A stretch of DNA of 50,825 nt from the IMG/VR virus record IMGVR_UViG_3300036780_000409, positions 1-50,825 of that record. One strand, written 5' to 3'. The notes under the pieces were generated by a model. The model saw nothing but the letters and a program-made list of their open reading frames with translations, searched no databases and was not told the DNA's origin. Position numbers and translations under genes: made by a program. Origin of the DNA: a virus. Every line of letters begins with the position of its first letter. Position 1 is the first letter of the stretch. This document shows positions 1,042-30,076 of this stretch, piece by piece.

Positions 1042-1199
1042 ATCATTTTTCGTGGCGCGGCGTGGAAGGACACGCGGGAAGTGCGGGAACAAGCGCACAG
1101 GGATGTTCCGGTCGGTTTCAAGGCCTGGGCCGGTTAGAGCGCACCCTCGACGCAGCCGGTATCGAGTCCGGTCGCCACGCGATTTCTGTTTCGGAATAA
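1038..1199 (+). CDS. possible 53-residue hypothetical protein
   Basis: The ORF opens with GTG in the previous stop (GTGA) and ends at 1199, 18 bases before the next gene. The product is glycine- and serine-rich with one cysteine and no recognisable domain. A different overlapping frame (1052-1342) is also open but would run into the clearly real gene at 1218, so I prefer this one. The main support is the start/stop overlap used throughout this region. Confidence 0.35.
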   Translation: MNHFSWRGVEGHAGSAGTSAQGCSGRFQGLGRLERTLDAAGIESGRHAISVSE

Positions 1200-1217
1200 T
1201 TCGAAGGGAGAAAAAAG

Positions 1218-2291: not shown

Positions 2292-2393
2292 AAATCCCCG
2301 CCGAACACTCCGGCAGGGAGACGAAGCGGGGAGCGGAAGCATCATCGCCCAAACGGTGACTGCCCAATCCGTTCCCCGCCAGGAGATTTGAAA

Positions 2394-3539: not shown

Positions 3540-3541
3540 CG

Positions 3542-4513
3542 ATGAGCGAAGCCGCAAAGACGTGTGGTTATAAGGCGAAGACGATCAAGAGTGTCATCCG
3601 CCGAAAGGTAGACCACTGGCTAAAAAGCATTGACGACGAATCGCTACGTTCGGCGCTTGCGGACAAGGTGATCGTTACCGGCGGCTGCGTCGCCTCGATG
3701 CTCCTTGGTGAAGAAGTGAAAGATTTTGATATCTATCTGCGTGATCACGACAGCGTTTTGGCTCTTGCGAATTATTACCTGGGAAAGTTTTCAACTCGCA
3801 AGCATGCCGGAATCGATGTGCCTCTCTCCGTCGAAGATGACGGAATCCGCATTCGCATAGTGGCCAAATCCTCGGGGATAGCCAGCGAAGAGGGCACCGA
3901 AAAGCCGTACCAATATTTCGAATCTCAGCCGGACCAAGAGAGCGGCGAGTACGTTTCGGACGTCATCACCGATCCGGGAACGATTGAAGAGGCTTACGAA
4001 GAGACTGAGGAAAAGGCTCAAAAAACGAAGGGCGACGCCAAGGCGAAATACCGCCCAGTTTTTATGACCAGCAATGCAATCACTCTCAGCGATAGAGTCC
4101 AGATAATCCTTCGTTTCTACGGCGAGCCCGACACGATTCACGAAAACTACGATTACGTTCACTGCACCAACTATTGGAAGAGTTGGGATGGCGGGGAACT
4201 CGTTTTGCGGCCCGCTGCGTTGGAAGCGCTCTTGTCCCGCACGCTGAATTACGTGGGCAGCAAGTATCCCATTTGCTCGGCCGTGCGCATGCGCAAATTC
4301 GTTCAGCGCGGATGGCGGATAAACGCAGGGCAAATTCTCAAGATGTCTATGCAGATTAGCTCACTGGACCTTACGGACATAAAGGTGCTTGAGGATCAAC
4401 TTACGGGCGTCGATACCGCGTATTTCGTGCAATTGATTGAAAGGCTCAAGGAAAAAGACCCGGAGAAAGTGGATTCGGCTTATTTGGTCGAGATCATCGA
4501 CAGGATTTTTTAG
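3542..4513 (+). CDS. nucleotidyltransferase-fold protein
   Basis: A 323-residue protein with the signature of the DNA polymerase beta-like nucleotidyltransferase fold: VIVTGGCVASMLLGE (the GG at residues 47-48), then VKDFDIYL with the two likely metal-binding aspartates D61 and D63. The remainder is charged, with a second conserved-looking part (NAITLSDRVQIILRFYGEP) and a helical C-terminus. The frame is open far upstream inside the nuclease gene, but the ATG at 3542, two bases after the previous stop, is the sensible start. Its substrate is unknown; its position between a nuclease and an SMC-like ATPase suggests a role in DNA ends or in defence. Confidence 0.65.
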   Translation: MSEAAKTCGYKAKTIKSVIRRKVDHWLKSIDDESLRSALADKVIVTGGCVASMLLGEEVKDFDIYLRDHDSVLALANYYLGKFSTRKHAGIDVPLSVEDDGIRIRIVAKSSGIASEEGTEKPYQYFESQPDQESGEYVSDVITDPGTIEEAYEETEEKAQKTKGDAKAKYRPVFMTSNAITLSDRVQIILRFYGEPDTIHENYDYVHCTNYWKSWDGGELVLRPAALEALLSRTLNYVGSKYPICSAVRMRKFVQRGWRINAGQILKMSMQISSLDLTDIKVLEDQLTGVDTAYFVQLIERLKEKDPEKVDSAYLVEIIDRIF

Positions 4514-4534
4514 GCGGTCAAAAGGAATAGAACC

Positions 4535-8939: not shown

Positions 8940-11567
8940 TTGCGCCAATCGGCCCAAGTCGAAACGCGGCTCGCGGAGTACCGCGCGTTCCTGGAAGCGA
9001 AGCGTGTAGCGGCCCCGGAGCGCGGCATTGCGGTACCCGCGACGGCGTTGAGAGATGTCCTCAAACCGTTCCAGCGGGACATTGTGGCCTGGGCCTTGCG
9101 CCGGGGATGCGCGGCGATCTTTGCCTCCTTCGGATTGGGCAAGACGCTTATGCAACTGGAGATTGCCGCGCATATCGTGGACCGCTGCGAGGGGAACTTT
9201 CTGATCGTGACGCCGCTTGGAGTTCGTCAGGAGTTCACGCGAGATGCGGCGCTATTGGGCGTGCGGACCAAATTCATCCGGTCGATCGATGAGTGCGATT
9301 CGGAGCATTCGATCTACCTCACCAATTACGAGACGATCCGCGATGGCAAATTGGATCCTCGCAAATTCACTGGCGTGAGCCTGGACGAAGCGGCCATCCT
9401 TCGCGGTTTCGGAGGCTCGAAAACGTTCCGCGAATTCATGCGGCTATTTGAGAACGGGCAGGTGCGCTACAAGTTCGTGGCCACGGCTACGCCTTCGCCG
9501 AACGAATTTATTGAACTGTTGGCCTACTCCGCGTTCCTCGACGTAATGGACGTTGGGCAGGCGAAGACCCGATTCTTCAAGCGCGATTCGACCAATGCCG
9601 ACAATCTGACCTTGCATCCGCACAAAGAGCGCGAATTCTGGCTGTGGATGTCCACTTGGGCGATCTTCCTGCAGAAGCCATCAGAATTGGGCTATTCCGA
9701 CGAAGGCTACGAACTCCCGGAGATGGATATCCGCTGGCACGAAATCCCCACGGACCACGCGGATGCCGGCGAGGAAGTCTCGGGACAGAAGCGGCTCGTG
9801 CGCAATGCCGCGATTGGCGTGACCGACGCCTCGCGCGAGAAGAGGCGATCGCTGCCCGGGCGCCTAGCGAAGCTGATGGAGATTCGCGCGGAGGACTTGG
9901 AAGCACACCGGGTGATCTGGCACGACCTGGAAGATGAGCGCCGTGCGATTGAGAGCGCCATTCCCGCGTGCGCCACCGTTTACGGCAGTCAACCCTTAGA
10001 CGAGCGCGAGGAAATCGTTATCGACTTCTCGGAAGGCAAGATTCAGGAACTCGCCAGTAAGCCGGTGATGCTTGGGTCAGGTTGCAATTTTCAACGCCAC
10101 TGCCATTGGGCCGTATTCCTGGGCATCGGCTTCAAATTCAACGACTTCATACAGGCCATCCACAGGTGCCATCGCTTCTTGCAAACGAAGAAAGTCCGGG
10201 TCGACCTGATCTACACCGAAGCCGAGCGCGAAGTGCGCCGCACGCTCGAACGCAAATGGGATGAGCACAAAAAGCTCGTGGCCAAGATGAGCGAAATCAT
10301 CCGCGAATACGGACTGGCGGCGAACGCGCTGCACGCGGAGATGTCGCGCGGCATGGGAATCGATCGGCACGAAGAATCGGGCGATTCTTGGCGCATGGTG
10401 AACGCCGATTGCGTGGAAGAGGCCGCGGCGCTTGCCTCTGACTCGGCCGGCCTGATCCTCACGTCGATTCCGTTCTCAACGCAGTACGAGTACAGCCCGA
10501 ACTATTCCGACTTCGGACACTCGGACGACAACGGACATTTTTTCCGGCAGATGGACTTTCTGACTCCGGAACTCTATCGCGTGCTCAAGCCCGGGCGCGT
10601 GGCGGCGATTCACGTGAAGGACCGCATCGTGCCGGGCGGCATGACGGGCCTGGGATTCCAGACGGTCTACCCATTCCACGCCGATTGCATCGCCCACTAC
10701 ACCAAGCACGGTTTCGCGTATCTCGGAATGAAGACCATCGTCACGGACGTGGTGCGCGAGAACAATCAGACCTATCGCCTGGGCTGGACCGAACAGTGCA
10801 AGGACGGCTCGCGCATGGGCGTGGGGATGCCGGAATACCTACTGCTATTCCGCAAGCCGCCTACCGATGGCGCCAATGGCTACGCGGACGAGCCGGTCGT
10901 CAAGTCGAAGGCCGAGTACTCGAGATCGCGCTGGCAGATTGACGCGCACGGCTTCGCACGGTCGAGCGGGGATCGCCTGCTCGCGCCGGAAGATTTGACC
11001 GCGCTGCCCCACGAGCGCATTTCCAAACTTTTCCGCAGCTTTTCCACCGGCGAAGTCTACGACTACGAGCGCCACGTCGCGTTGAGCGAATCGCTGGAAA
11101 CCTGCCCAGAGTGCCATCACATTCACATCGGCTCGGAAGTTTGCGGACGCAACGGGAACGGCACGCCAAAGTGCGAATGCCGGGGAAGCGGCCGCTTGCC
11201 GGTCACGTTCATGCTGATGCAGCCGCAAAGTTGGCACCCGGACGTGTACACCGACATAACGCGCATGCGCACGCTCAACGGAGCGCAACAAGCCAAAGGG
11301 CGCGAGATGCATTTGTGCCCGATGCAGTTCGATCTGGCGGACCGGGTAATTGCGCAATTCTCGCGACCGGGTGAAACCGTTTTCGACCCCTTCGCGGGAA
11401 TCGGAACTTGTCCAATGCGAGCGGTAAAGCTCGGGCGCTTCGGCCTGGGAATCGAGCTGAGCGAACGCTATTTCGTGGACGCGGTTTATTACTGCCGCGA
11501 GGCCGAGCGTGGCCGCAACGTTCCGGCGTTGTTTGATTTAGAAGTGGAAGCCGAGGTCTCTCTGTGA
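8940..11567 (+). CDS. fused SNF2-type helicase and DNA methyltransferase
   Basis: An 875-residue two-enzyme protein. The N-terminal half is an SF2/SNF2-like ATPase: LKPFQRDIVAWAL, Walker A FGLGKT (64-69), a DEAA box (149-152), TATPSPN (182-188) and an arginine-finger-like QAIHRCHRFLQ (405-415). The C-terminal half is an amino-methyltransferase with the catalytic motif before the SAM motif: LTSIPF (507-512) in place of the usual DPPY or SPPY, then DPFAGIGT (816-823) and GIELSERY. A cysteine cluster (C722, C725, C735, C745, C747) lies between them. The likely role is protection or remodelling of phage DNA. The start is TTG, with AAGGAA upstream. Confidence 0.8.
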   Translation: MRQSAQVETRLAEYRAFLEAKRVAAPERGIAVPATALRDVLKPFQRDIVAWALRRGCAAIFASFGLGKTLMQLEIAAHIVDRCEGNFLIVTPLGVRQEFTRDAALLGVRTKFIRSIDECDSEHSIYLTNYETIRDGKLDPRKFTGVSLDEAAILRGFGGSKTFREFMRLFENGQVRYKFVATATPSPNEFIELLAYSAFLDVMDVGQAKTRFFKRDSTNADNLTLHPHKEREFWLWMSTWAIFLQKPSELGYSDEGYELPEMDIRWHEIPTDHADAGEEVSGQKRLVRNAAIGVTDASREKRRSLPGRLAKLMEIRAEDLEAHRVIWHDLEDERRAIESAIPACATVYGSQPLDEREEIVIDFSEGKIQELASKPVMLGSGCNFQRHCHWAVFLGIGFKFNDFIQAIHRCHRFLQTKKVRVDLIYTEAEREVRRTLERKWDEHKKLVAKMSEIIREYGLAANALHAEMSRGMGIDRHEESGDSWRMVNADCVEEAAALASDSAGLILTSIPFSTQYEYSPNYSDFGHSDDNGHFFRQMDFLTPELYRVLKPGRVAAIHVKDRIVPGGMTGLGFQTVYPFHADCIAHYTKHGFAYLGMKTIVTDVVRENNQTYRLGWTEQCKDGSRMGVGMPEYLLLFRKPPTDGANGYADEPVVKSKAEYSRSRWQIDAHGFARSSGDRLLAPEDLTALPHERISKLFRSFSTGEVYDYERHVALSESLETCPECHHIHIGSEVCGRNGNGTPKCECRGSGRLPVTFMLMQPQSWHPDVYTDITRMRTLNGAQQAKGREMHLCPMQFDLADRVIAQFSRPGETVFDPFAGIGTCPMRAVKLGRFGLGIELSERYFVDAVYYCREAERGRNVPALFDLEVEAEVSL

Positions 11568-11793: not shown

Positions 11794-13544
11794 GCGATCC
11801 ACTAATGCCCGCAGCCGCTCTCGATCAGCATTTAATTGCGCTCGGGAAGACCGGCGCCGGCAAATCCTCTGCCGTGCGCGTTCTGGTCGAGGACCTGCTT
11901 GAGCGGAAAGAGCGTGTGGTTGTCATAACCCCAAAGAGCGATTGGTGGGGAATCAAGCTGGCCGCCGATGGAAAACACGCCGGATATCCGCTCGTAGTTT
12001 TTGGAGGAGATCACGCCGACATGCCGCTCAACCACACGAGTGGGAAGATGATGGCGGAGCTTCTGGCCTCCGGGAACCGCTCGGCCGTTTTGCAGATGCG
12101 CGAATTCATGCCAGCCGAGCGTGAGCAGTTTTGGGGCGATTTCGCGATGGGCCTTTTTCGATTACTGGAAGGAAAAATGTATCTGGTTATCGATGAGGTT
12201 CATAATTTCGCGCCGAAAGGCAAGGTCGAGGGAAAAGCCGCGACCATGCTCCATTGGTCCAACAAACTCGCGAGCGAGTCGCGTGGCCTCGGTATAACGC
12301 TAATCGCAGCGTCCCAGCGCCCCCAAAAAGTTCACAACGATTTTCTGACCTCCTGTGAAACGTTGATCGCAATGCGCGTCACGACGCAATGGGACCGGCA
12401 GGCCATCAAGGATTGGATCGATGGTTGCGGTGATAAGGAAACGGGCGCCGAGGTCTTGAGCACTTTGGCGCAGATGAAACGCGGCGACGCCTGGGTGTGG
12501 TCCCCGGAGATCGAGTTTGGTCCGAAGCAGATTCACTTCCCCATGTTCAGGACCTACGACTCTTTTAAGCCGCAAGAGCCAAAGGCGGTTAAATCGCTCA
12601 GTGGATGGGCAGAGGTGAATCTGGAGGATGTCCGCAAGAAGCTGGACTATGTTGTCAAGGAAGCCGAGGCGAACGATCCGAATAAACTTCGCACCCGCAT
12701 CGCGCAGCTTGAGGCAGAAGCGCGCAAGAAGCCCGCAGCCACGAAGGAAGTTGCTGTCGCTGACGCCAAGGCCATCGAACGCGCGGCGCGACAAGTCGAA
12801 CAGGGATTTCGAACGCAACTCGGTCAATTGGAGAAAGGGATGAAATCCGCGCAACGGACACTTTCACTGATTGCTGAGGCTGCGAGTTCGGCGAGCGCAA
12901 AGATGGGACCCATTAAGCCGTTCGTTCTGCCGCAAGTTTCGGGAGCGGAAATCCAACAGAAAGGGCTCGCGCTGGAACGGGCTGCGCAAAACCTATCGCA
13001 TGCAGCGCCCATCCGCTCCCGTCAATTACCGCCGATTGCCACGGAAGCCCACACCAATGGCGATTCGGAACTGACTGGCCCGATGCGCAAGATCCTCCGC
13101 GCGCTGGCTGAACTCTCCGCCATCGGCAAGGATGCGCCGCCCAAAGCGATGGCCGCGGCGTGGGCTGGTTACTCCGCGCAAGGTGGTGCCTTTGGCAATC
13201 CCATCGGCACGCTGAATAGTTTGGGCCTGGTGCGCTATCCGCAACCGGGATTCGTTTCGTTGACCGAGGAAGGCGCGTCCGCAATTGGCGCGCAAGATGT
13301 GCCGGATTCATCCGAAGTGAGACGAAGAATCGAGTCGATTTGCACCGGACCGGAGCGAAAGATTCTCACGGCGCTTCTGGAAAATGGCGAGGGGGAAATC
13401 TCCAAAGAGGAACTTGCGGAGAAAAGCGGGTACTCGCCGGTGGGCGGCGCTTTCGGGAATCCGATTGGAGCGTTGCGCACGAAAGGGCTGCTCGATTATC
13501 CGCGACCGGGGATGGTCCGAGCGGCGGAGTGGTTGTTCATATGA
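11790..13544 (+). CDS. HerA/FtsK-type ATPase with tandem winged-helix tail
   Basis: A 584-residue protein. The ATPase has Walker A GKTGAGKS (19-26), Walker B LVIDEVHNF (132-140) and an ASQRPQK motif (174-180), as in HerA/DUF87 DNA pumps. A helical linker (about 290-410, with AEARKKPAATK and long A/E/Q-rich stretches) leads to two copies of a winged-helix-like unit: 430-519 and 520-584. They share G-P-x-R-K-I-L at the start and a nearly identical GGAFGNPIG...L...YP.PG wing. HerA proteins work with NurA-type nucleases or in DNA translocation; none is adjacent here. The start overlaps the mini-ORF. Confidence 0.75.
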   Translation: MSDPLMPAAALDQHLIALGKTGAGKSSAVRVLVEDLLERKERVVVITPKSDWWGIKLAADGKHAGYPLVVFGGDHADMPLNHTSGKMMAELLASGNRSAVLQMREFMPAEREQFWGDFAMGLFRLLEGKMYLVIDEVHNFAPKGKVEGKAATMLHWSNKLASESRGLGITLIAASQRPQKVHNDFLTSCETLIAMRVTTQWDRQAIKDWIDGCGDKETGAEVLSTLAQMKRGDAWVWSPEIEFGPKQIHFPMFRTYDSFKPQEPKAVKSLSGWAEVNLEDVRKKLDYVVKEAEANDPNKLRTRIAQLEAEARKKPAATKEVAVADAKAIERAARQVEQGFRTQLGQLEKGMKSAQRTLSLIAEAASSASAKMGPIKPFVLPQVSGAEIQQKGLALERAAQNLSHAAPIRSRQLPPIATEAHTNGDSELTGPMRKILRALAELSAIGKDAPPKAMAAAWAGYSAQGGAFGNPIGTLNSLGLVRYPQPGFVSLTEEGASAIGAQDVPDSSEVRRRIESICTGPERKILTALLENGEGEISKEELAEKSGYSPVGGAFGNPIGALRTKGLLDYPRPGMVRAAEWLFI

Positions 13545-14048: not shown

Positions 14049-14837
14049 ATGCCAAAGAGGATTCTTGATTTCGAGGCGATGTGGGCATCAGGAAAGCTCT
14101 CGAAATGTAAACCGCAGAACCGGTCGGAGTACTCGTGGCTTTACGGTTTGGCGGACGTCAATGGGTCATTTGAAATGACGAATATGACCGTTATTTTCGG
14201 GAAGGTGGCCCCGATCCGGCCCGACCTTACCGTCGCCCGCTTGGAGGAGATTTTCAACGATTTCCACAGGAACGACCTTTTGTACAAGTGGCAGGACGAG
14301 GCTTCCGGCAAGGTTTTTGGGCACTGGATAGGCTCAGAAAAGGGCGGAAGACTACCGCCGAAGAGCCAGAGGGAGAAGTACGCAACAAGCGCGCCACCTG
14401 TCCCTAAAGAGAAGACGAAAAGGGCTTTACCTCCCATTACAGAATCTAGATTAAATCTAGAGCCGGTCCAGAGTGAATCTCGACCTGAGTCTAGACAGGA
14501 AGGGTTTGGTTTAGGTTTGGATTCTGATAGGAAGGGAAAGGTAAATACAACTTCTAGGAACGCGCAAAATCAGCGCGTCCCAAGCCTCTCTCTCGTTTCT
14601 GATTTGGCCCGAAAAAAACAACTAACCCCACAGCAAATCGAATACGGCAAGGTCCACACTTTGGCGAATGAAGCCTTGCGCCTGATCGGAAAACAGGAAC
14701 GCGAGACCGGGAAAGTCGACGAGTTTGCGCTCAAAGAAGACTTGAAGCAGTGGTGCGCGAGCTGCGGCATTCCGTACAACGCCGACGAAATCAGGCGGGC
14801 GCTAGATGCCGCGTCCGGAAAGGCAAAGAGCGCATGA
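14049..14837 (+). CDS. replication-initiator-like (lambda O-type) protein
   Basis: A 262-residue protein with a folded N-terminal part (about 1-110; EYSWLYGLADVNGSFEMTN, then ARLEEIFNDFHRNDLLYKW) that looks like the winged-helix domain of phage replication initiators. A low-complexity linker (about 115-185, rich in P, S, R and E) follows, then a helical C-terminal domain (about 190-260). Lambda O and relatives share this layout, and their origin lies inside the linker-coding DNA; the same place here holds TCTAGA repeats. An alternative ATG at 14045 opens only seven codons. The function is inferred from layout and fold, not from a close match. Confidence 0.5.
   Translation: MPKRILDFEAMWASGKLSKCKPQNRSEYSWLYGLADVNGSFEMTNMTVIFGKVAPIRPDLTVARLEEIFNDFHRNDLLYKWQDEASGKVFGHWIGSEKGGRLPPKSQREKYATSAPPVPKEKTKRALPPITESRLNLEPVQSESRPESRQEGFGLGLDSDRKGKVNTTSRNAQNQRVPSLSLVSDLARKKQLTPQQIEYGKVHTLANEALRLIGKQERETGKVDEFALKEDLKQWCASCGIPYNADEIRRALDAASGKAKSA
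14443..14495 (+). other. candidate replication origin repeats inside the initiator gene
   Basis: Three TCTAGA sites at 14445, 14456 and 14490 lie in the linker-coding part of the initiator-like gene. The first sits in a perfect 10-bp palindrome (AATCTAGATT, 14443-14452); the first two are 11 bp apart, one helical turn. AT-richer DNA with a GGTTTGG repeat follows directly. The arrangement resembles iterons within lambda O, but the repeats are short and chance is possible. Confidence 0.35.
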
Positions 14838-21031: not shown

Positions 21032-21574
21032 ATGAAACGACGTGTGGTTAGACACGAAGTAGTGCAGCCGCCGGACCAATCCTACCGACTTATCGCTCTG
21101 ACTCAAAATCAAAACGCAGCTGTGGACGCCGAAGACTTTGAGTTCCTCAATCAATGGAATTGGTGTGCCACTTGGGACCCAACCACAAAATCCTTCTACG
21201 CTGTCCGTGACCACGGAAGGATCAGAATGCACCGTCAAATTCTTGGTTGCCGACCAGAAGAGGAAGGTGACCATCGCAACAACGACACGCTCGACAATCG
21301 CCGCAGTAATCTGCGCGCATGTACTCGCCGACAAAATGGCGCGAATAGAACAATGCGAGTGATGACACAAAGCAGTAAATTCAGAGGAGTCTATTGGAAT
21401 AAGCATGCGGGCAAATGGATAAGCCAAATTGGCGGGTCGGGATTTCATCAGTATCTCGGACTTTTCGTTAACGAAGAAGACGCTGCCCGCGCCTACGATG
21501 TTGCGGCCAGCGCGAAGTTCGGTGAATTCGCCAAGCTCAATTTTCCGAATTTGGTTGTAGAATCGCGGCCATGA
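21032..21574 (+). CDS. free-standing HNH homing endonuclease with AP2 domain
   Basis: A 180-residue mobile endonuclease. N-terminal HNH part: a YRLIALTQNQNAAVDAEDF start, then MHRQILG and EGDHRNNDTLDNRRSNLRAC (D-H ... N-N-x-x-x-N-R-R-x-N-L). C-terminal AP2 DNA-binding domain: SSKFRGVYWNKHAGKWISQI, then YLGLFVNEEDAARAYDVAAS. This fused pattern is typical of selfish endonucleases. It lies between terminase and portal, normally adjacent genes; its last 4 bases overlap the portal start. Its DNA looks lower in GC than that of its neighbours, which fits recent arrival. Confidence 0.88.
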   Translation: MKRRVVRHEVVQPPDQSYRLIALTQNQNAAVDAEDFEFLNQWNWCATWDPTTKSFYAVRDHGRIRMHRQILGCRPEEEGDHRNNDTLDNRRSNLRACTRRQNGANRTMRVMTQSSKFRGVYWNKHAGKWISQIGGSGFHQYLGLFVNEEDAARAYDVAASAKFGEFAKLNFPNLVVESRP

Positions 21575-23019
21575 AGAAACCGAAGCCCGCCCCTAAAACA
21601 AATAGCCTAGCCATCGCTGCACTGAAAGCGCTCACGCCCGATGAAAATCTAAAGCCGACTCGCTGGCCGATCAAACCTCCCGAGTTATTTCCCGGAGTCG
21701 TCCCGAAAGGAAAAACAGCGCAAGTCGCGATGGACTCCGGCCCGTACAATTACGCATCGTCTTCGATGTATATTTCCGGCGACGTCGGCGGATTTCCCGG
21801 CTATCCGTTCCTGATGATGCTGGCCTTGCGCGCTGAATACCGCAACATGGCCTCGGCCCTCGCGACCGAATTAACCCGCGAATGGATCACGCTCAACAGC
21901 AGCGAGACGGCGGGCGAGTCGACCAAGAAAAAAGTGAAGGAGATCGATCAGGAACTCAAACGCCTAGGCCTGCAGCAGACAATTCGCTTGGCGGCGGAGC
22001 AGGACGCCTTCTACGGAAGCGGCCAGATTCTTATCGACCTCAAGGGCCATGATGTCGAAGTGCCGCTGGTTCTCGATAAAGCAACTATTGCTAAAAAAAC
22101 TCTCGTCGGGTTTCGCGTAGTCGAGCCGATCTGGACCACGCCGCTGATGTACAACGCGCTCGATCCGTCGAAAGCCGATTTCTACAAGCCTTCGTCGTGG
22201 TGGGTGATGGGGCAGCACTGGCACGCCACGCGGATGCTGATTATCATCACGCGCTGGGTTCCGGATATCCTGAAGCCTGCGTTCAATTTTTCGGGCATCA
22301 GCCTCAGCCAGCTCGCCGAGCCTTACGTCAATAACTGGCTGCGCACGCGGCAGAGCGTCTCGGACCTCATCAACAATTTTTCGATCGTCGTGCTCAAAAC
22401 GGCAATGGATCAAGTGCTGGCTGGTGGAGACGATGGCAGCGATCTTTTCGCGCGCATCAAGCTCTTCACTGCCACGCGCAGCAACAAGGGCGTGATGACG
22501 GTAGACAAAGAGCGCGAGGAACTGGAACAACTCGCCGTTCCGCTTGGCGGATTGCACGAATTGCAATCGCAAGCGCAAGAGCACATGTGTTCCGTCTCGC
22601 ACGAACCGGCCATCATCATGACCGGAATTTCTCCCGCCGGACTCAATGCGTCGAGCGAGGGAGAGATTCGCGTCTGGTACGACTGGATCGCGGCGCAGCA
22701 GGAAGCCCACTATCGCGTACCGATTGATGCGGCGATCAAAATCGTGCAGCTTTCGCTGTATGGAGAAATCGATCCCGATATCAGTTTCGAATTTAATCCA
22801 CTGTTCCAACTGACCGACAAAGAGCTTGCGGAGATTCGCGTCAACGAAAGCATCGAAGCCGGGAATTACCTGGATCGGCAAGTTGTGGATGCTCCAGAAG
22901 TGCGCGAGCAAATCGCACGCAATCCCGAATCCCGATGGAACGGCATTGACGTCAGCAAAGTTATACAACCACCTCCGGGGCAGGAACTAGACGAGCCGTT
23001 GGCAAGAGGAAATGCGTAA
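21571..23019 (+). CDS. portal protein (DUF1073-like)
   Basis: A 482-residue portal. Recognisable stretches: MLALRAEYRNMASALATELTR (about residues 90-110), EQDAFYGSGQILID, a WWVMGQHWHATRMLII segment, then SEGEIRVWYDWIAAQQEAH and ISFEFNPLFQLTDKELAEIR, as in DUF1073 portals. It forms the 12-subunit ring at one head vertex through which DNA passes. The order terminase, portal, Mu F-like head protein supports the call. The start overlaps the HNH stop (ATGA). Confidence 0.85.
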   Translation: MKKPKPAPKTNSLAIAALKALTPDENLKPTRWPIKPPELFPGVVPKGKTAQVAMDSGPYNYASSSMYISGDVGGFPGYPFLMMLALRAEYRNMASALATELTREWITLNSSETAGESTKKKVKEIDQELKRLGLQQTIRLAAEQDAFYGSGQILIDLKGHDVEVPLVLDKATIAKKTLVGFRVVEPIWTTPLMYNALDPSKADFYKPSSWWVMGQHWHATRMLIIITRWVPDILKPAFNFSGISLSQLAEPYVNNWLRTRQSVSDLINNFSIVVLKTAMDQVLAGGDDGSDLFARIKLFTATRSNKGVMTVDKEREELEQLAVPLGGLHELQSQAQEHMCSVSHEPAIIMTGISPAGLNASSEGEIRVWYDWIAAQQEAHYRVPIDAAIKIVQLSLYGEIDPDISFEFNPLFQLTDKELAEIRVNESIEAGNYLDRQVVDAPEVREQIARNPESRWNGIDVSKVIQPPPGQELDEPLARGNA

Positions 23020-23857
23020 GCAGGCCATCGCTCGTCCCGTCCACGCTAACGCTGGCACCGAAGCCCGCTACCGCCGCGCGCTACTTTCCGCCATCTCCGA
23101 AATGGTCAAGGACGTAACCGACCTGATCACCGAGCAGCGCGAATCGAATCCTCCGGTCCTCGCCGAAGACGCCTCGCACGTCAATCCTCCGCAGCCTCCG
23201 CCCAGGCCGCTGATCGGCACGTCTCCCTCCGTTGCCATGCGCGAGGAGCTAAATAAAATAGCCGCGCGCTGGCAGAAGCGATTCGCCGAAATGTCCGACA
23301 CGGTAGCCTCCAGCTTCCTGCGCAATTCGTTTCGCGGCACCGATAACGCCATGCGCGCGGCCTTGAAATCGGCCGGCTGGAGTATCGAATTCAAGATGAC
23401 CCCGGCGGTGCGCGATGCGTTCGAGGCCTCATTGGCAGAAAACGTGGGGCTGATCCGCTCCATCCCGGAAAAGTATTTGCAGCAGGTCGAGGGAATCGTG
23501 ATGCGGAACTACGCGGCGGGCCGCGACCTGCAGACGATGACGCGCGAAATCAAGGCGCTCTCTCCGAAGACGCAGGACCGCGCCGCGCTGATTGCACGCG
23601 ATCAATCGAACAAAGCAAATGCCGTGGTGACGCGTGCGCGGCAGAAAGAATTAGGAATTGCCGAGGCGGTGTGGATGCATTCGCATGCGGGAAAAGAGCC
23701 GAGGCCAACGCACGTCGCGATGAACGGGAAACGCTACGATGTTTCGAAGGGGATGTACGACAGCGCGGTCAAGAAATGGATTTTCCCGGGAGAACTTGTT
23801 TCCTGCAGATGCACGAGTCGGTCGGTATTGCCGTGGACTCCTGCCGAGAAAAATTAA
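23012..23857 (+). CDS. Mu gpF-like minor head protein
   Basis: A 281-residue head morphogenesis protein. The C-terminal module shows the family pattern: RAALIARDQSNKANAVVTRAR, then GIAEAVWMHS, RPTHVAMNGKRYDV and FPGELVSCRCTSRSVLP, where the two cysteines and histidine are conserved. Such proteins bind portal or scaffold during procapsid assembly. The N-terminal half is helical, with a proline-rich stretch (NPPQPPPRP) near residue 60. The start overlaps the portal end by 8 bases, with AGAGGA upstream. Confidence 0.85.
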   Translation: MRKQAIARPVHANAGTEARYRRALLSAISEMVKDVTDLITEQRESNPPVLAEDASHVNPPQPPPRPLIGTSPSVAMREELNKIAARWQKRFAEMSDTVASSFLRNSFRGTDNAMRAALKSAGWSIEFKMTPAVRDAFEASLAENVGLIRSIPEKYLQQVEGIVMRNYAAGRDLQTMTREIKALSPKTQDRAALIARDQSNKANAVVTRARQKELGIAEAVWMHSHAGKEPRPTHVAMNGKRYDVSKGMYDSAVKKWIFPGELVSCRCTSRSVLPWTPAEKN

Positions 23858-23859
23858 CT

Positions 23860-24003
23860 GTGGATCAGCCAAGATTTATTATTCGGGCTGGATTCGAAGT
23901 CGTTGCAATGATCGAAGAAGAAGTTTGTGTCCGCATTTACATCGAACCCGGGGATTGGGATGCGTATCTTATCGTTTCCGGCGAGGACGGACGCGATGCC
24001 TAG
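23860..24003 (+). CDS. 47-residue hypothetical protein
   Basis: The GTG start is two bases after the stop of the Mu F-like gene. It reads VDQPRFIIRAGFEVVAMIEE, then VRIYIEPGDWDAYLIVSGED, a compact run of beta strands. The frame is open upstream within the head gene, but that part is a shadow. There is no ribosome site apart from coupling. Moderate support. Confidence 0.45.
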   Translation: MDQPRFIIRAGFEVVAMIEEEVCVRIYIEPGDWDAYLIVSGEDGRDA

Positions 24004-24027
24004 AGCGCGGAGAAGCCTTAATCTGAA

Positions 24028-24123
24028 TCAGTGGTAATGGCGGTCGCGTCTCATCCAAAATCCCAAGAGAACTCCACCAACAGCCGTCGCGGCACCAGCG
24101 AACCATGATAGCAAGATAATCAT
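24028..24123 (-). CDS. 31-residue membrane protein
   Basis: A minus-strand ORF encoding MIILLSWFAGAATAVGGVLL, then GFWMRRDRHYH: one hydrophobic helix with a basic tail. A good ribosome site (AAAGGAAG, five bases before the ATG on the minus strand) supports translation. It lies 18 bases downstream of the minus-strand ribbon-helix-helix gene, so the two form a small operon against the direction of the virion genes. Possible roles are membrane toxin, superinfection exclusion or a phage-control peptide; none is shown. Confidence 0.55.
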   Translation of the reverse strand: MIILLSWFAGAATAVGGVLLGFWMRRDRHYH

Positions 24124-24141
24124 CGCACTTCCTTTCCCGTA

Positions 24142-24315
24142 CTAGACTGAAGTTGTTATCTGATTCGCTTCGGCAAACTTCCTCAGCGCCAATTCAATCA
24201 CTTGCGACTCGCCAATTCCCAGCTTGTCTTTGGCTGCTTTCATAATCAGTGCGGCGTGGACGGTGATGCGCAGGTCTTTTCTGATTCGCTTGTTTAGCGG
24301 AACCTTGCCCGTCAT
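24142..24315 (-). CDS. ribbon-helix-helix (Arc/CopG-like) regulator
   Basis: Minus-strand ORF of 57 residues: MTGKVPLNKRIRKDLRITVH, then AALIMKAAKDKLGIGESQVIELALRKFAEAN (given in parts). A beta strand with basic residues, then two helices separated by a LGIGESQ turn, is the RHH layout. The ATG has no ribosome site. Upstream, TTGATT - 17 bp - TACTTT ends 8 bases before the ATG, so the mRNA may be leaderless. A palindrome (CGTCA-TT-TGACG, 24310-24321) covers the start codon and is a likely autoregulatory operator. Confidence 0.65.
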   Translation of the reverse strand: MTGKVPLNKRIRKDLRITVHAALIMKAAKDKLGIGESQVIELALRKFAEANQITTSV

Positions 24316-24350
24316 TTGACGTAAAAGTACCGGAATCGCTCCACAAAATC
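24305..24350 (+). repeat. 46-bp direct repeat, left copy, with operator palindrome
   Basis: Exactly identical to 28671-28716. It holds the first codons of the minus-strand RHH gene, the palindrome CGTCATTTGACG at 24310-24321 and the minus-strand -10 (TACTTT). In both copies the sequence continues for 63 bases of weaker similarity to a TATATG, so the homologous region is longer than the exact repeat. Confidence 0.9.
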
Positions 24351-24413
24351 AATATGCAATCAGTGAAATTGCTGATTTTTAGTCAGGTCCCTGCCGTACA
24401 GTCCATTTCGTAT

Positions 24414-24803
24414 ATGTCCACCATCGCAGTTTTCGCCCAGGGGCATTCCCAGCCAGACATCCTGCCCGATTGCCGCTTGAAGAATCCCACGAACGTCATC
24501 CGCGATGCGTACGCAGGGATGGGCCTCAACTGGCAGCCGATCTTTTGCGCCAACTGCGGTGCGGACGGAGGACTCGTTCCCGCCGAGAATTGCGATTTCG
24601 CCTTCTATCTCTGCAATCCCTGCGCGGAAAAGTGGGGGCCGATCGCCGGAACTTACGCCGAGCCCGACGCCATATTCTTCGCCAAAGTGAAGGCCGCGCA
24701 AATTGAGAAGTATGGGCGCGAACTCGAGCCGCCCGAAATTATCGAACTCCTGAATGACGAAAATAGCTTTCTCAGCAAACTCGCCAAAGAGCGAAAGGGG
24801 TAA
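24414..24803 (+). CDS. small zinc-finger-like protein at cassette start
   Basis: A 129-residue protein from the ATG at 24414; the frame opens at 24354, but that part is leader sequence. FCANCGAD (about residues 42-49) and LCNPCAEKW (about residues 66-74) give two CxxC pairs, a zinc ribbon. The helical C-terminus (FFAKVKAAQIEKYG, PPEIIELLNDENSFL) is charged. No ribosome site is evident, and the leader is homologous to that before the DUF2213 gene. Function unknown. Confidence 0.6.
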   Translation: MSTIAVFAQGHSQPDILPDCRLKNPTNVIRDAYAGMGLNWQPIFCANCGADGGLVPAENCDFAFYLCNPCAEKWGPIAGTYAEPDAIFFAKVKAAQIEKYGRELEPPEIIELLNDENSFLSKLAKERKG

Positions 24804-24808
24804 CTGCC

Positions 24809-25279
24809 ATGCCGATGATCTACGGGATTTCTCTTGCAACGGCCGGAAACACGGCGACCAGCGGCACGGCGAATACCGAGGTCAACACATTCTCGATCAA
24901 GCCCGGCGTGCGCAACGTAGGCTTGCAATCCCTCTATATCGTTGGCAAGGGCGCTGGCCTCACGGCTATCTCTGGAATCGTGATGCGCATCGTTGGCTGG
25001 GCCACGGCCTCGACGGGTGGCGTTGCTGTTACGCCGACGCCGAAAGACCCGGGCATGCAAGCGGCCAAGGCTGCGGTACTTTCCGGCGCAACGAACGGCA
25101 CTACGCGCGTGAATCACCTTTCGATCGGTTGCGGAGCTGCGGGTCCCGGTGGCTGGGTTGCGCCCAATCCCGACTCGGTGATCTACCAGCAAGGCGGCGG
25201 CGCGGGCTCGACCGATGGCTTGAACGCTTCCGGAACAACTGGTCTCAACTTCGAGTGGTCTGGCGAGATCGTCGAATAA
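24809..25279 (+). CDS. putative virion-associated beta protein
   Basis: A 156-residue protein rich in G, T, A and S with conserved-looking segments (YGISLATAGNTATSGTANTE, VGLQSLYIVGKGAGLTAISG, GCGAAGPGGWVAPNPDSVIY). I recall similar short proteins between head genes in uncultured phages, probably decoration or other virion parts, but have no firm family. There is no signal peptide. The ATG follows the previous stop by five bases, and a second ATG at 24815 is in frame. Confidence 0.55.
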   Translation: MPMIYGISLATAGNTATSGTANTEVNTFSIKPGVRNVGLQSLYIVGKGAGLTAISGIVMRIVGWATASTGGVAVTPTPKDPGMQAAKAAVLSGATNGTTRVNHLSIGCGAAGPGGWVAPNPDSVIYQQGGGAGSTDGLNASGTTGLNFEWSGEIVE

Positions 25280-25297
25280 TCGATAAGGCGGTGCGGC

Positions 25298-26689
25298 ATG
25301 TGGGGTCGTCGCAAACTCGCATTGCTCGCACTTGCTTTCCTGTGTGGCAGTGCTGAATTCCTCATAATTGCGCCTCCGCACAGCAATGCGGATCAAGGTC
25401 CACTTTTACTCGGGGTGGGTGGGGCCTCCGGTTGCAGCCCAGCCGCCGGCCACACTTACTCGACTACTTTCCCCGCGACGGAAAATCCCATCTCGGAATG
25501 CAGCTCGTGGCTGAATGGCGCGTTGAACGGCACTGACTGGTCCAACGTGCGCACCACCACGAACTTTGCATTCGGCACCGAGAATCCGCAAAGCGGAGTA
25601 GACGACGATTCCACGGCGACGATTGTTGGCACGTGGGGCGGCAATCAACAAGTTGTCGGGACGGTCGTCGCGCCCACTACCAGCGACACCATCCAGCAGG
25701 AAGTGGAGCTGCGGTTACTGACCACGATCACGTCGGGCACGATTACCGGCTACGAGGCGGACTATATCGGTTTCACAACGACCGCTGCCGATTGCGGCGT
25801 GACGGTGCAGCGCTGGAATGGCGCGCTAAACAGCTTCACCTCGCTGGCGGGTGGAGTAGGTGGCAGCCAAACTTGCCTGCATACCGGAGACATCGTTCGC
25901 GCGGTGGTTATCGGCGGAAAATTCACCACCTACATCAACGACGTGATCGCGGCGACCGGCACCGACTCGACCTTCACCACGGGCAAGCCGGGGATGGGGA
26001 TGTATCTGGAGGCGTCCTCGGGAGGCGCGAACACTTTCGGCTTCAGCGCGTGGCGCGCGAGCGACAATCCCATCGCCTACGTGCAGTCCGGGTCCAACGA
26101 TACGAGCTCGTCGGGAACCACGGCAGCCATAACCAACATCCCCGCCGCAACCACCACCGGGGATTTGATGGCCTGCATGGGCTACTGGAACTCGACCACG
26201 CTTACCGCTTCGGTTGCCGACAGCACCAACGGCACGTACACGGCCATCGGCACACCGACGAGCGGAGCTGGGGCACTTTCGGCTTATCGGGCGCAGATGT
26301 TTTATAAAAGCGGCATCACGGGCTTTGCCACAACGGTTCATCCCACGCTGACCACTTCGGGGACCACTAGCGATCGAGGCTTGGCCTGCCACGAGGCGCG
26401 CGGCGTAACCACGCTCGATCAATCCCCGGCAGTCAAGGCAGGATCGGGCGCAACGGCGACCTCGACGGCCACGAGCACCACCACGGCAGTCGATGAGTAT
26501 GCAGCGGGATTTGCCGTATTTGGCAATACCGGCAGCGGCATAACCTCGCCGTGGGTAGAACGGGAGAGCACTAATTTCGGCGCGAATACCACGGGGGATT
26601 TCGAGCCGTCGAAAGAAGAAATCGTGCAGTTTTCGGCTCCGCAAAGCGGGTCCAGCAATTATCTCGCAGGAGTGGCGACGTTTAAGTGA
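25298..26689 (+). CDS. secreted LamG/ConA-like beta protein
   Basis: A 463-residue protein with a typical signal peptide (MWGRRKLALLALAFLCGSAE..., cleavage likely near residues 30-33 around SNA-DQG). After it, about 45-255 resembles a concanavalin A/LamG-type jelly roll (TFPATENPISECSSW, EADYIGFTTTAADCGVTVQR, KFTTYINDVIAATG, GKPGMGMYLEA). About 256-463 is a second beta domain with many T, S and G residues. Such folds bind glycans. A signal peptide is odd inside a virion gene cluster. It may be exported from the infected cell, or the leader may be an entry or assembly feature. Confidence 0.6.
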   Translation: MWGRRKLALLALAFLCGSAEFLIIAPPHSNADQGPLLLGVGGASGCSPAAGHTYSTTFPATENPISECSSWLNGALNGTDWSNVRTTTNFAFGTENPQSGVDDDSTATIVGTWGGNQQVVGTVVAPTTSDTIQQEVELRLLTTITSGTITGYEADYIGFTTTAADCGVTVQRWNGALNSFTSLAGGVGGSQTCLHTGDIVRAVVIGGKFTTYINDVIAATGTDSTFTTGKPGMGMYLEASSGGANTFGFSAWRASDNPIAYVQSGSNDTSSSGTTAAITNIPAATTTGDLMACMGYWNSTTLTASVADSTNGTYTAIGTPTSGAGALSAYRAQMFYKSGITGFATTVHPTLTTSGTTSDRGLACHEARGVTTLDQSPAVKAGSGATATSTATSTTTAVDEYAAGFAVFGNTGSGITSPWVERESTNFGANTTGDFEPSKEEIVQFSAPQSGSSNYLAGVATFK

Positions 26690-26709
26690 AGCGCTACATA
26701 GGAGAGAAT

Positions 26710-27138
26710 ATGCGTAACCCTTTCAAGTACTCCATCGTTGCTATCGCCACAATTCTAATGGTCGCTTTCTATGGGATGCGCCAACCGTTTCCAGTTCACG
26801 CGCAGCAATCCTCGTCCGGGTATGCAATGTCCGCCTTCGATCTGAGCGCAACTGGCGCGACAAATATAAAAGGTAGCGGAGGGAATGTCTTCGGCTGGTA
26901 CGGATACAATCCGAACGCTTCGGCCTGCTTTCTGCAATTTTACAATTCCGCGACTCCGACACTCGGAACGGGTGCGCTTCACCCGTTCGGAGTTCCGGCC
27001 GGCGCGGCCTTCAATGCGGCTCCGGGAAGTTTGGCCTTCTTCAATTTGAGCGCGGCGATATCGACCGGCGAAACGACGACGGCTACGGGCGGCACGGCGT
27101 GCGCTAGCGCGATGGTTATCACGATTCTCTACCAGTAA
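26710..27138 (+). CDS. secreted small protein
   Basis: A 142-residue protein. A GTG at 26686 overlaps the previous stop, but GGAGAG at about 26701 is well placed for the ATG at 26710, which also gives a clean signal peptide (MRNPFKYSIVAIATILMVAF..., VHAQQ cleavage near residue 31). The mature part has an FDLSATGATNIKGSGGNVFG start, a YNPNASACFLQFYNSATP segment and a C-terminal CASAMVITILYQ, a beta-sandwich pattern seen in phage virion proteins of unknown role. It is the second signal-peptide gene in the cassette. Confidence 0.6.
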   Translation: MRNPFKYSIVAIATILMVAFYGMRQPFPVHAQQSSSGYAMSAFDLSATGATNIKGSGGNVFGWYGYNPNASACFLQFYNSATPTLGTGALHPFGVPAGAAFNAAPGSLAFFNLSAAISTGETTTATGGTACASAMVITILYQ

Positions 27139-27143
27139 AAATC

Positions 27144-28259
27144 ATGGCTTATCTCGACGACGATTCGGCATGGTGGTCAGGGCTTCAGCATTGCGCTGCC
27201 GTCGTAGCGCTGGCAGCGGCTTCCGTTGTCGCGCCCGTGCAAGCCATTCAAGTTGCCGATCAGCCGCAAGATGAACCCATTCCGCCATCAACGTTCCATC
27301 TTGACGAGGATCTCTATCAACCACCTGCCGCCTGGATCGTCCCGGTTGAATATCCGCAACCGTATTCTTTCGAGCAAAACGAATCTGGAAATCTGAGGGG
27401 CCATCCCGACGAAGACTATTGGCAAAATACTGCGGCACCGCAAGAGGCAACTCTAGAATATCCGCAGCAATTTAGCTTCGAGCAAAACGAAACCGCAGGA
27501 TCGTTGCGTGGGCAGCCGGATGAAGATTTCTGGATACCGCGGGCGCAGCCTGCAATTCCAAACGTAGCGCCCTGGCCGTTCAGCTTCGATGCGGGAGAAA
27601 TTGCCTTCGCCTCGGCACCAAGCTTTATTCCCGCCGAGGGCTTTTGGAGACCGTCCCCACCACCAGGATCCTATTGGAATTGCCGGCCATTTTCGGAAGA
27701 TGGCTCGTTCGTCACTTCGGCCGCTCCGCCGTTCGCGCCCGAAGAAGCCTTCTGGGAAATAGCCAATCAGTCTGCATCCGCAAACCTCTACCCGCAGCCG
27801 TGGCTCTTCGACACGCAGGAAGCGGCAGGCGATCTATTCGGCTTGTCCGATGGCGACGCATGGAGCGCGCCGCTGCCGATGGCGCAATATCAGGCGCCGC
27901 TCGTATTTCGCGATGAGGACGTGCTGTCGCATGCTCCGGTCGAAGGGGATTTCTGGTCTATCGCGCCCAGGCCGGCACAATTGCCATTCTCCCCTCTCTA
28001 CCTGCCGGACGGCGGCCTATTCGAATTCACCCCTCCGGGGAACCTGCACGTTGACGAGGATGCATGGATCAATCCGGTAGCGTCGGCTTCTGGATGGGCG
28101 AACTATATTCCAACGTTCTCGGAAGCGGATTGGGTGAGAGCGTACGGTCCGATTTCCATTCTCGGCGCCAACACAATTCCGGCGCTTGCGATATTGGACG
28201 CCAGCGCGGTTCCGGCAATGGCGATTCTCGGAGCTTCGGTTGTGCCGAAAGGATGGTGA
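27144..28259 (+). CDS. acidic-aromatic tandem-repeat protein
   Basis: A 371-residue protein with an N-terminal hydrophobic stretch (13-35) and eight degenerate repeats of about 31-38 residues. Each ends in an acidic-aromatic box: DEDLY 54-58, PDEDYW 88-93, PDEDFW 125-130, PAEGFW 163-168, PEEAFW 199-204, SDGDAW 235-240, VEGDFW 266-271 and VDEDAW 303-308. The repeats at about 70-93 and 106-130 are nearly identical (YSFEQNE..., LRGxPDED). The C-terminus has three short I-L-(G/D)-A-x-x-x-P units (338-370). I do not recognise the family. Its place in the secreted-protein cassette suggests a surface or virion role. Confidence 0.65.
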   Translation: MAYLDDDSAWWSGLQHCAAVVALAAASVVAPVQAIQVADQPQDEPIPPSTFHLDEDLYQPPAAWIVPVEYPQPYSFEQNESGNLRGHPDEDYWQNTAAPQEATLEYPQQFSFEQNETAGSLRGQPDEDFWIPRAQPAIPNVAPWPFSFDAGEIAFASAPSFIPAEGFWRPSPPPGSYWNCRPFSEDGSFVTSAAPPFAPEEAFWEIANQSASANLYPQPWLFDTQEAAGDLFGLSDGDAWSAPLPMAQYQAPLVFRDEDVLSHAPVEGDFWSIAPRPAQLPFSPLYLPDGGLFEFTPPGNLHVDEDAWINPVASASGWANYIPTFSEADWVRAYGPISILGANTIPALAILDASAVPAMAILGASVVPKGW

Positions 28260-28262
28260 AAA

Positions 28263-28661
28263 ATGCCGCGCGTATTGCTGACTTTTTTGATTAACAATTC
28301 GGAATTTGAAGGCAGCTCCGATCAGGACTTTCAGATCGGACCGGTTGCGACGGGCCTATCGCTGCTCAACGGACCTCCGCTCGCCTACGTCAACGATGCC
28401 AGCGGGATCGCCACGCTCTTTGATATCTGCGGGAATCCAGTGCCCGGCGCCGAGAATATTTCGCTGGCATACGAGGCGGGAAGCGGCGGCCTTTACGTCG
28501 GCACGATCGTCGGCGCGAGCTTCAATCCTCCGAACATTGGCTTCGGATACACGCTCGTGGTATCTCTCGAATCACCCTCGCAGGGAAACCGTCAGGCTTC
28601 CTTTCCGGCGCAAGTCGTGGCAAGTACGCAACCGGAATGTGCGCTCGCCGTCGACGGGTAA
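28263..28661 (+). CDS. hypothetical beta-sandwich protein
   Basis: A 132-residue protein starting three bases after the repeat protein, which ends in TGA. It begins PRVLLTFLINNSEFEGSSDQ and continues with strands separated by glycine turns (ENISLAYEAGSGGLYVGTIV, GFGYTLVVSLE), an Ig-like or beta-sandwich pattern. No signal peptide is present. It is the last gene of the cassette before the right 46-bp repeat, and no family is recognised. Confidence 0.55.
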   Translation: MPRVLLTFLINNSEFEGSSDQDFQIGPVATGLSLLNGPPLAYVNDASGIATLFDICGNPVPGAENISLAYEAGSGGLYVGTIVGASFNPPNIGFGYTLVVSLESPSQGNRQASFPAQVVASTQPECALAVDG

Positions 28662-28670
28662 TCCGTGAGG

Positions 28671-28716
28671 TTGCCCGTCATTTGACGTAAAAGTACCGGA
28701 ATCGCTCCACAAAATC
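28671..28716 (+). repeat. 46-bp direct repeat, right copy
   Basis: Exactly identical to 24305-24350, including the CGTCATTTGACG palindrome (28676-28687). On the minus strand it also carries the first bases of the RHH gene (ATGACGGGCAA), but the frame does not continue as that gene, so it is a copied regulatory segment. The leader and TATATG that follow are homologous to those at the left copy. Confidence 0.9.
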
Positions 28717-28795
28717 CTAAAGCCATCCCTTGATTCCCCTATTTTTGCTACAGGATGCACGGTAGGGTGCGTTTTGTATATGCCCGCTACCGCAG

Positions 28796-30076
28796 ATGAG
28801 TCAACCCGCCCACGACGCCGCGTTAGCGAACCGTCGGTACGACGAAAAGACGGGGCGCATGAACATTATGCGCTCGCGGATTTCCAAGGCGACGGTCAAT
28901 CCCTACTACGGACACGAGATTCCCGAGGCGAATACTCTCGGCCTCGATCCCAACCGAATTTACTATCTGCTGCGCGATCCGGAAGAGCTGGAAAAAGCGG
29001 CTCCATCCTTCGCACGGGTCCCGCTGATGTTCAAGCACATCGCCGTGAGCGCGGACGATCCGCAACAGGATCAGATCGCCGGGACGATCGGCTCGGACGT
29101 GGAGTTCGAATATCCGTATTTGATTTCCGATCTGAGCGTGTGGGACGCCAAGGCCATCGCGGGGATCGAAACGGATACGGTCCGCGAACTCTCCTGCTCC
29201 TATCACTACACGGCGGACATGACGCCAGGCGTTTTCGAAGGGACGAGCTTCGACGGGGTGATGCGGAATATTTCCGGCAATCACGTCGCATTGGTCCAAT
29301 CGGGACGGGCGGGTTCGGACGTAATGGCCGCGGACAGCGGACTGGAGATTAACGTGAAAGAAACCAGATTCGGAAAAGCCCTTTACGCGATGCTCTGTGC
29401 GATCTCCCCGAAACTGGCGAAGGACGCCGCGCTGAAACCGCTCGTGATCGCAGCCGATCCCAAAACATTCGACGCGAAATCGCTCGAGCCGAAATTGCTC
29501 GCGATGGATGCGGATATGCCCGGACCTCAGACGTTGGCTGCAATGGCAGCGGCCAAGGATGCCTCCGAAGAGGAACCGGTCGCGAAAGAGCCGGAAAAAA
29601 CCGCCAAGGATTGCAGCTATTGCAACGCCAAAGACGGCCAGCCGCATGCCGATGGATGCAAGACCGCGGCGGACGAAAAGGCAGCCTCCGAAAAAGCCGC
29701 GGCAGACAAGGCCGCGAAAGACGCCGAGATGAAGGCCGCGGAAGAAAAAAAGAACAAAGAAGCGGAGGATGCGCGCATGAAGACCGCGATGGATTCATTC
29801 AAGATCGAACTCCGGGAAGCGGAGGAAGCGCGCCGGGCCGTACGTCCGGTCGTCGGGGATGTACTGATGGCGCACGATTCGGCAGGAGATATCTACGCCT
29901 TTGCGCTCGATCAGATGAAGGTCGAACACAAGGACGTGACGGGCGTACCGGCCTTGCGCGCGCTATTCAATCTGGCTTCGTCCTCCAAGGCACCCGCGCC
30001 GCGGCCGGCCTTCGACGGGATCGCGGACATGGACAAAAAGTTCCCCAACGCTTCGCGCGAAATTCGAGTTCTGTAG
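28796..30076 (+). CDS. DUF2213 head protease fused to scaffold-like tail
   Basis: A 426-residue protein. The N-terminal part (about 10-185) is DUF2213: DEKTGRMNIM, SRISKATVNPYYGHEIP, LGLDPNRIYYLLRDPEEL, a VSADDPQQDQIAGTIG block, DLSVWDAKAIAGIE, ELSCSYHYTADMTPGVFEG and RNISGNHVALVQSGRAGSDV. DUF2213 proteins lie before capsid genes and are thought to be maturation proteases. The C-terminal part has a CSYCN...C knuckle and a long K/A/E coiled coil (about 290-330), as in scaffolds. An alternative ATG at 28780 is in another frame. Confidence 0.8.
   Translation: MSQPAHDAALANRRYDEKTGRMNIMRSRISKATVNPYYGHEIPEANTLGLDPNRIYYLLRDPEELEKAAPSFARVPLMFKHIAVSADDPQQDQIAGTIGSDVEFEYPYLISDLSVWDAKAIAGIETDTVRELSCSYHYTADMTPGVFEGTSFDGVMRNISGNHVALVQSGRAGSDVMAADSGLEINVKETRFGKALYAMLCAISPKLAKDAALKPLVIAADPKTFDAKSLEPKLLAMDADMPGPQTLAAMAAAKDASEEEPVAKEPEKTAKDCSYCNAKDGQPHADGCKTAADEKAASEKAAADKAAKDAEMKAAEEKKNKEAEDARMKTAMDSFKIELREAEEARRAVRPVVGDVLMAHDSAGDIYAFALDQMKVEHKDVTGVPALRALFNLASSSKAPAPRPAFDGIADMDKKFPNASREIRVL

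Follow-up and report, generated by a model that had tools for sequence, protein, structure and literature searches.

The window analysed here is a 50.8 kb record of an uncultured bacterial virus (IMG/VR record IMGVR_UViG_3300036780_000409, positions 1 to 50,825). In its head gene cluster, between a Mu F-like head morphogenesis gene and a DUF2213 gene, lies a cassette of six genes with an exact 46-bp direct repeat at its two ends (24305-24350 and 28671-28716). These two copies are the only ones in the entire record, and the pair is the longest direct repeat within the window. The features of the locus are listed below; the handles L003, L108 and so on denote other phage records used for comparison, of which L108 and L003 are the closest relatives.

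Features of the locus

23012-23857, plus strand: Mu F-like head morphogenesis gene, left flank (PF04233 E=1.1e-10, phrog_324 E=3.2e-75)
24142-24315, minus strand: small divergent ribbon-helix-helix-like (RHH-like) regulator gene, 57-aa product (weak match to the transcriptional regulator family phrog_3887, E=0.026; orthologues kept in place in L108, L003 and L171)
24305-24350, no strand: repeat copy 1, a 46-bp leader core and probable operator/promoter region of the divergent pair (exact match to 28671-28716; single copy in L108)
24351-24419, no strand: rest of leader copy 1, a spacer and the distal box at 24397-24419 (TACAGTCCATTTCGTATATGTCC); its ungapped similarity to copy 2 greatly exceeds that of random pairs
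24414-24803, plus strand: g5, zinc-ribbon protein, alternative start at 24354 (four Cys invariant in 28 sequences)
24809-25279, plus strand: g6, 156-aa jelly-roll beta-sandwich protein (46-sequence alignment with the GCGAAGPGGWVAPNPD motif; AlphaFold2 predicted local distance difference test, pLDDT, 91.8)
25298-26689, plus strand: g7, 463-aa protein with signal peptide (rule-based test)
26710-27138, plus strand: g8, protein of about 142 aa with signal peptide (rule-based test); a GTG start at 26686 is possible
27144-28259, plus strand: g9, 371-aa protein with eight acidic-aromatic repeats of about 36 residues; near its N-terminus a hydrophobic segment follows a WW.GLQ.C motif
28263-28661, plus strand: g10, 132-aa protein (fused to a g9-like protein in L035)
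28671-28716, no strand: repeat copy 2, the 46-bp leader core (exact match to copy 1)
28717-28795, no strand: rest of leader copy 2, with the distal box at 28763-28785 (TAGGGTGCGTTTTGTATATGCCC; 20/23 positions common to the single leader of L108)
28796-30076, plus strand: DUF2213 gene (head maturation protease-like), right flank (homologues in 542 phage records, some annotated head maturation protease)

The six genes are tightly packed, with gaps of 5, 18, 20, 5 and 3 bp, and the last stop codon falls 9 bp before repeat copy 2. The GC content is 0.588 inside the cassette and 0.562-0.573 outside it. An earlier note on this DNA, made from the sequence alone, had described the exact repeat, the six genes between its copies, signal peptides in the products at 25298 and 26710, eight acidic-aromatic repeats in the protein at 27144, a zinc ribbon, and the usual proximity of Mu F-like and DUF2213 genes. 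Each of these descriptions stands: both signal peptides fit our simple rule-based test, all eight repeats were located (beginning at residues 54, 89, 126, 164, 200, 236, 267 and 304), and the neighbourhood is correct by family matches and homologues. The divergent RHH-like gene was missing from the note's list.

Structure of the leader

The identical cores are part of a longer similarity. The spacing from core to TATATG is 60 bases at both copies; the 63 bases given in the earlier note is the distance to the ATG. The weaker similarity that the note saw beyond the core is real: over the 88 bases 3' of the core, 46/88 positions are identical between the copies (52%) as against 46/46 in the core, random window pairs share 22.6 +/- 4.3 identities per 88, and 0/19,840 of them were as good as the leader pair. 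A plain duplication of recent date would have made the tails match as well as the cores do, so the core is either constrained or gene-converted. Strong matches to the distal box occur in the window at the two leaders only, and its candidacy as a genome-wide phage promoter was rejected because there is no further strong plus-strand site in the window. TATATG was considered both as a start codon and as a -10 box, and neither assignment is firm; the ATG is out of frame with DUF2213 in L108 and at copy 2, and L108 reads TACATG.

The start codon and first codons of the RHH-like gene lie inside repeat copy 1, at its left end. This gene has orthologues at the corresponding position, and in the same orientation, in L108 (53% identity, E=8e-14), L003 (35%) and L171 (32%), and its matches to phrog_3887 are weak in each phage (window E=0.026, L108 E=0.031, L171 E=0.0035). 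Beside the regulator gene, L171 carries a 23-bp dyad with 10-bp perfect arms. The leader of L003 contains a 32-bp dyad with 13/16 pairs, which 0/200 shuffles of a 140-base stretch equalled; in another scan over a wider stretch its p was about 0.015. Dyads above chance were found neither in the window nor in L108.

Several details around this small gene are recorded here in their own right. Some 280 bp separate the Mu F-like and RHH-like genes in the window (23858-24141); L003 lacks them, its RHH-like frame ending about 20 bp after Mu F. The L003 frame (9685-9852, minus strand) lacks an ordinary start codon where one is expected; a frameshift or a rare start codon may account for this. In more distant relatives (L187, L138, L122, L116 and others), a different small divergent open reading frame (ORF), of a CxxGH...CPICQ zinc-ribbon type, stands just upstream of DUF2213 and replaces the RHH-like gene; a short AGGCAAATGCCT-like sequence often lies near it, as if the slot's regulator were exchangeable.

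The same slot in relatives

The earlier note had proposed an alignment of the phage with its relatives, to see whether a genome without the cassette has the repeat just once between its Mu F-like and DUF2213 genes. This is so in the two closest relatives. In L108 and L003, whose DUF2213 proteins are 78% identical to that of the window, all six cassette genes are absent, and the gap from Mu F-like to DUF2213 gene measures 302 bp and 329 bp, respectively. L108 has one core copy between its RHH-like gene and DUF2213, matching at 37/46 positions (80%) with one gap, and one distal box that has 20/23 positions in common with copy 2. L003 has one leader, more diverged, with the same CAAAATC end. The L108 leader does not point to which copy is original, as 41/69 of its positions match copy 1 and 38/69 match copy 2.

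The wider set of relatives agrees. The note had named as refutation the finding that relatives all carry the six genes without the repeat; among 88 relative loci having both flanking genes (a redundant set with Mu F-like to DUF2213 gaps of 11 to 2,994 bp), the genes for the zinc ribbon, the jelly roll g6, g8, g9 and g10 were found in 0/88. Profile searches with g6 and the zinc ribbon across 20 DUF2213-lineage records returned nothing; as a positive control, the g6 profile recovers its target in L035. In a first scan, the slot of more distant relatives was occupied by other genes over as much as 7.8 kb, with signal-peptide proteins among their products. ORFs with a rule-based signal peptide make up 8/36 of plus-strand ORFs in the slot versus 5/161 outside it (Fisher p=4e-4 with the window counted, p=0.002 without it). 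Because both gap length and gene content differ among relatives, the slot between the Mu F-like and DUF2213 genes is variable in this lineage.

The cassette genes in unrelated phages

The zinc-ribbon and g6 genes are adjacent in about 50 environmental contigs, where the pair sits in head or tail gene clusters. The carriers differ in their portal families: phrog_12 in L035, phrog_10963 in L038 and phrog_145 in L056, versus phrog_146 in the window. L035 has a g6 81% identical to that of the window but a portal, protease and capsid of other families. Its zinc ribbon, g6, long protein and g9-g10 fusion follow one another in this same order, with a major-tail-protein-like gene (identified by eye) on one side and the tape measure gene on the other. 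In L034 and L032 the module is located between portal-like and capsid genes. Relatives of g9, which have up to 23 repeats, follow the pair in many contigs, and motifs of the [DE]ED[FY]W type were found downstream of it in 15/32 contigs and upstream in 0/32. In L031 and L032, glycosyltransferase-like ORFs lie between g6 and the repeat protein, and L031 also has a methyltransferase-like ORF (these were read from the sequences, and one that was tested had no Pfam match).

At tblastn sensitivity the pair was found in 0/50,697 cultured phage records, and a pattern-limited scan found g6 in 1/84,980 GTDB species genomes. None of the other carriers has comparable flanking repeats, one 16-bp match being all that was found. 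Because the pair is spread over unrelated phages and no carrier has comparable repeats, the cassette appears to be a horizontally mobile late-gene module and the repeat a local feature. The repeat is single-copy in cassette-free relatives and is not found with the cassette genes elsewhere; its best reading is therefore as a resident leader or operator, not as cargo, and as a candidate site for regulator binding.

The cassette proteins

None of the cassette proteins matches a family at usable scores in Pfam, PHROGs, NCBIfam or PADLOC: g5 has no Pfam, PHROG or NCBIfam match above cut-off, no recombinase or transposase was matched among the six products in these three collections, and no PADLOC model for anti-phage defence was matched. 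A search of solved structures gave only generic zinc-finger matches for g5, for example ClpX (E=0.007), and nothing for g6. With Foldseek, the closest match of the g6 model was an uncharacterised Caudovirales protein (template modelling score, TM, 0.74), and against the PDB only low-TM viral jelly rolls were found. The N-terminal half of g7 has 36% identity to a protein at the same place in L052; g7 used as a query found no relatives, and none were found for g8. A lectin-like reading of the same half of g7 came from a sequence pattern only, the AlphaFold model being useless (pLDDT 34), and is not claimed.

The block looks like an interchangeable accessory set of exported or surface proteins. 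Display of its products on the virion or outside the cell is probable, and they might form an accessory surface layer or an adhesin there; for the function of the cassette as a whole, exported or virion-surface display is our most economical guess.

Two further observations concern other genes. An HNH endonuclease gene in the window (21032-21574, phrog_99 E=1.2e-32) lies between the terminase and portal genes, which are directly adjacent in L003, so that it is another lineage-specific insertion. In the 118 kb phage L031, a portal-like gene (990-5243) has two apparent intein-like insertions (CFPGDTEV / CFSDDTDV ... TPNHRMYG blocks that recur, by eye).

Origin of the duplicated leader

We consider it likely that a foreign six-gene late cassette was inserted between a resident leader and the DUF2213 gene, and that the leader is now double, with one copy for each operon. 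The incoming set would have comprised the zinc ribbon, the jelly roll, the exported proteins, the acidic-aromatic repeat protein and the small protein. The resident leader, made up of the 46-bp core overlapping the start of the divergent RHH-like gene, the 60-bp spacer and the distal box, would thereby have come to stand before the cassette as well as before DUF2213. Each copy may be the operator and start region of the operon that follows, and one regulator could govern both. The identical cores could also permit gain or loss of the cassette through homologous recombination. The earlier note's proposal that cassette and DUF2213 gene keep the same control element is supported, with the refinement that the repeat is assigned to the resident phage; a regulatory role for the leader is suggested by its position, its conservation and the adjacent regulator-like gene.

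Several results weigh against this account. Sigma-70 promoters and terminators were searched for at either end of the cassette, and none marks the leader. Nor does an RNA structure: the fold z-score is +0.30 at copy 1 and -2.19 at copy 2, the latter not shared, and an Rfam scan of the leader returned one miRNA family only, far under its gathering score. Shuffled sequences give dyads as good as the one in the window repeat. An exact 37-bp core was sought in all viral contigs and found in no other record, and no second repeat-flanked example has been sequenced. Finally, no fold is assigned to g8, g9 or g10, nor to g7, whose model failed.

That neither a promoter nor a dyad stands out from chance in the two window copies would also suit a repeat that is a mere recombination scar, in which the crossover that inserted the cassette joined two leaders and the core upstream of the cassette has no regulatory role. 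One origin proposed for phage mosaicism is recombination at short shared boundary sequences (PMC3029335). We hold a scar to be unlikely, however, since core and distal box are both conserved in L108 and a core that is identical ahead of a tail at 52% does not fit a recent scar, unless the cores have been kept identical by gene conversion. That the six genes are instead ancestral virion genes, which recombination between the repeats removed from L003, L108 and the remaining relatives, would agree with the single copy left behind, direct repeats being good deletion substrates. It would demand many independent losses to reach 0/88 loci, and close g6 relatives occur in phages with unrelated portals and capsids; we regard such loss as very improbable.

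A discrete block with an exact direct repeat at each end is also what a mobile element would leave, the 46 bp being a target-site duplication or attachment sites. This we think extremely improbable, as no recombinase or transposase was matched among the products, the repeat is resident in cassette-free relatives, other carriers have no flanking repeats, and the similarity extends past 46 bp. An assembly artefact, in which the contig fuses two genomes at a shared leader, has to be weighed because the record is metagenomic and no second contig has the same junction, which also counts against the insertion we prefer. L003, moreover, carries a suspicious exact 76-bp ectopic repeat: positions 13455-13530 equal 14491-14566, a piece of a tail-component gene copied inside the gene after the capsid gene, which has the look of a mosaic, by real ectopic exchange or assembly chimera. 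But sequencing reads are usually longer than 46 bp, just 9 bp separate the end of the last cassette gene from copy 2, GC is similar inside and outside, and a simple two-genome misjoin would not on its own lead back to the same leader and DUF2213 gene, so that an artefact seems highly improbable.

Comparison with known systems

The nearest structural precedent for the insertion is the segment of genes 43-46 in mycobacteriophage LRRHood, which is flanked by an exact 29-bp direct repeat that is single-copy in phage Cali; gain or loss by repeat recombination was proposed (Pope et al. 2011, PMC3029335). Both cases have a multi-gene segment with exact direct repeats at its ends that are single-copy in close relatives, and here the segment is absent between the same neighbours in L108 and L003. 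The LRRHood segment is 1.35 kb and contains a phage repressor gene (PMC3029335), whereas the window insert is 4.4 kb, lies in a head cluster, has a repeat that overlaps a divergent regulator-like gene, and bears late or exported cargo.

Other systems share single traits. The promoter early stem-loops (PeSLs) of T4-like phages are, in the account of PMC4503421 (via Arbiol 2010 and Comeau 2014), mobile regulatory cassettes in which an early promoter is joined with a stem-loop; as described there, they are repeated regulatory sequences between genes, thought to drive accessory-gene shuffling. The window differs from that description in having no sigma-70 promoter or shared stem-loop and two copies only. 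Like a phage moron, the block is present in one phage, absent between the same neighbours in relatives, and preceded by a control region; unlike a moron, it holds six genes instead of one, and its leader is copied from the resident phage. A moron has its own promoter ahead of it and a terminator after it; here the leader lies ahead of the block by position, and neither a sigma-70 promoter nor a terminator was found at either end. The stoperators of mycobacteriophages L5 and Bxb1, 13-bp asymmetric sites present in 24-34 copies (PMC3029335), likewise put more than one copy of a candidate regulator site in a genome, but the window has two 46-bp copies only. Transposons, integrons and recombinase-borne elements find no counterpart here, as none of the six products matched a recombinase or transposase. 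The structural class is thus known, and the cargo module is new to Pfam, PHROGs, NCBIfam and PADLOC.

Implications

The chances are about even, in our estimation, that the zinc-ribbon/jelly-roll pair and the DEDFW-repeat protein form an undescribed mobile late-gene module of many unrelated phage lineages of uncultured bacteria, encoding an optional exported or virion-surface structure and plugged in behind copies of a resident regulated leader. The locus would provide a clean case in which a virion-gene cluster takes up a large accessory block and the neighbouring operon keeps its control element, since that element is present twice. Because the gene order is kept in unrelated phages, among the environmental contigs and outside the cultured records, the role of the module, be it surface display, adhesion or a glycoprotein scaffold, may be tested as that of one unit.

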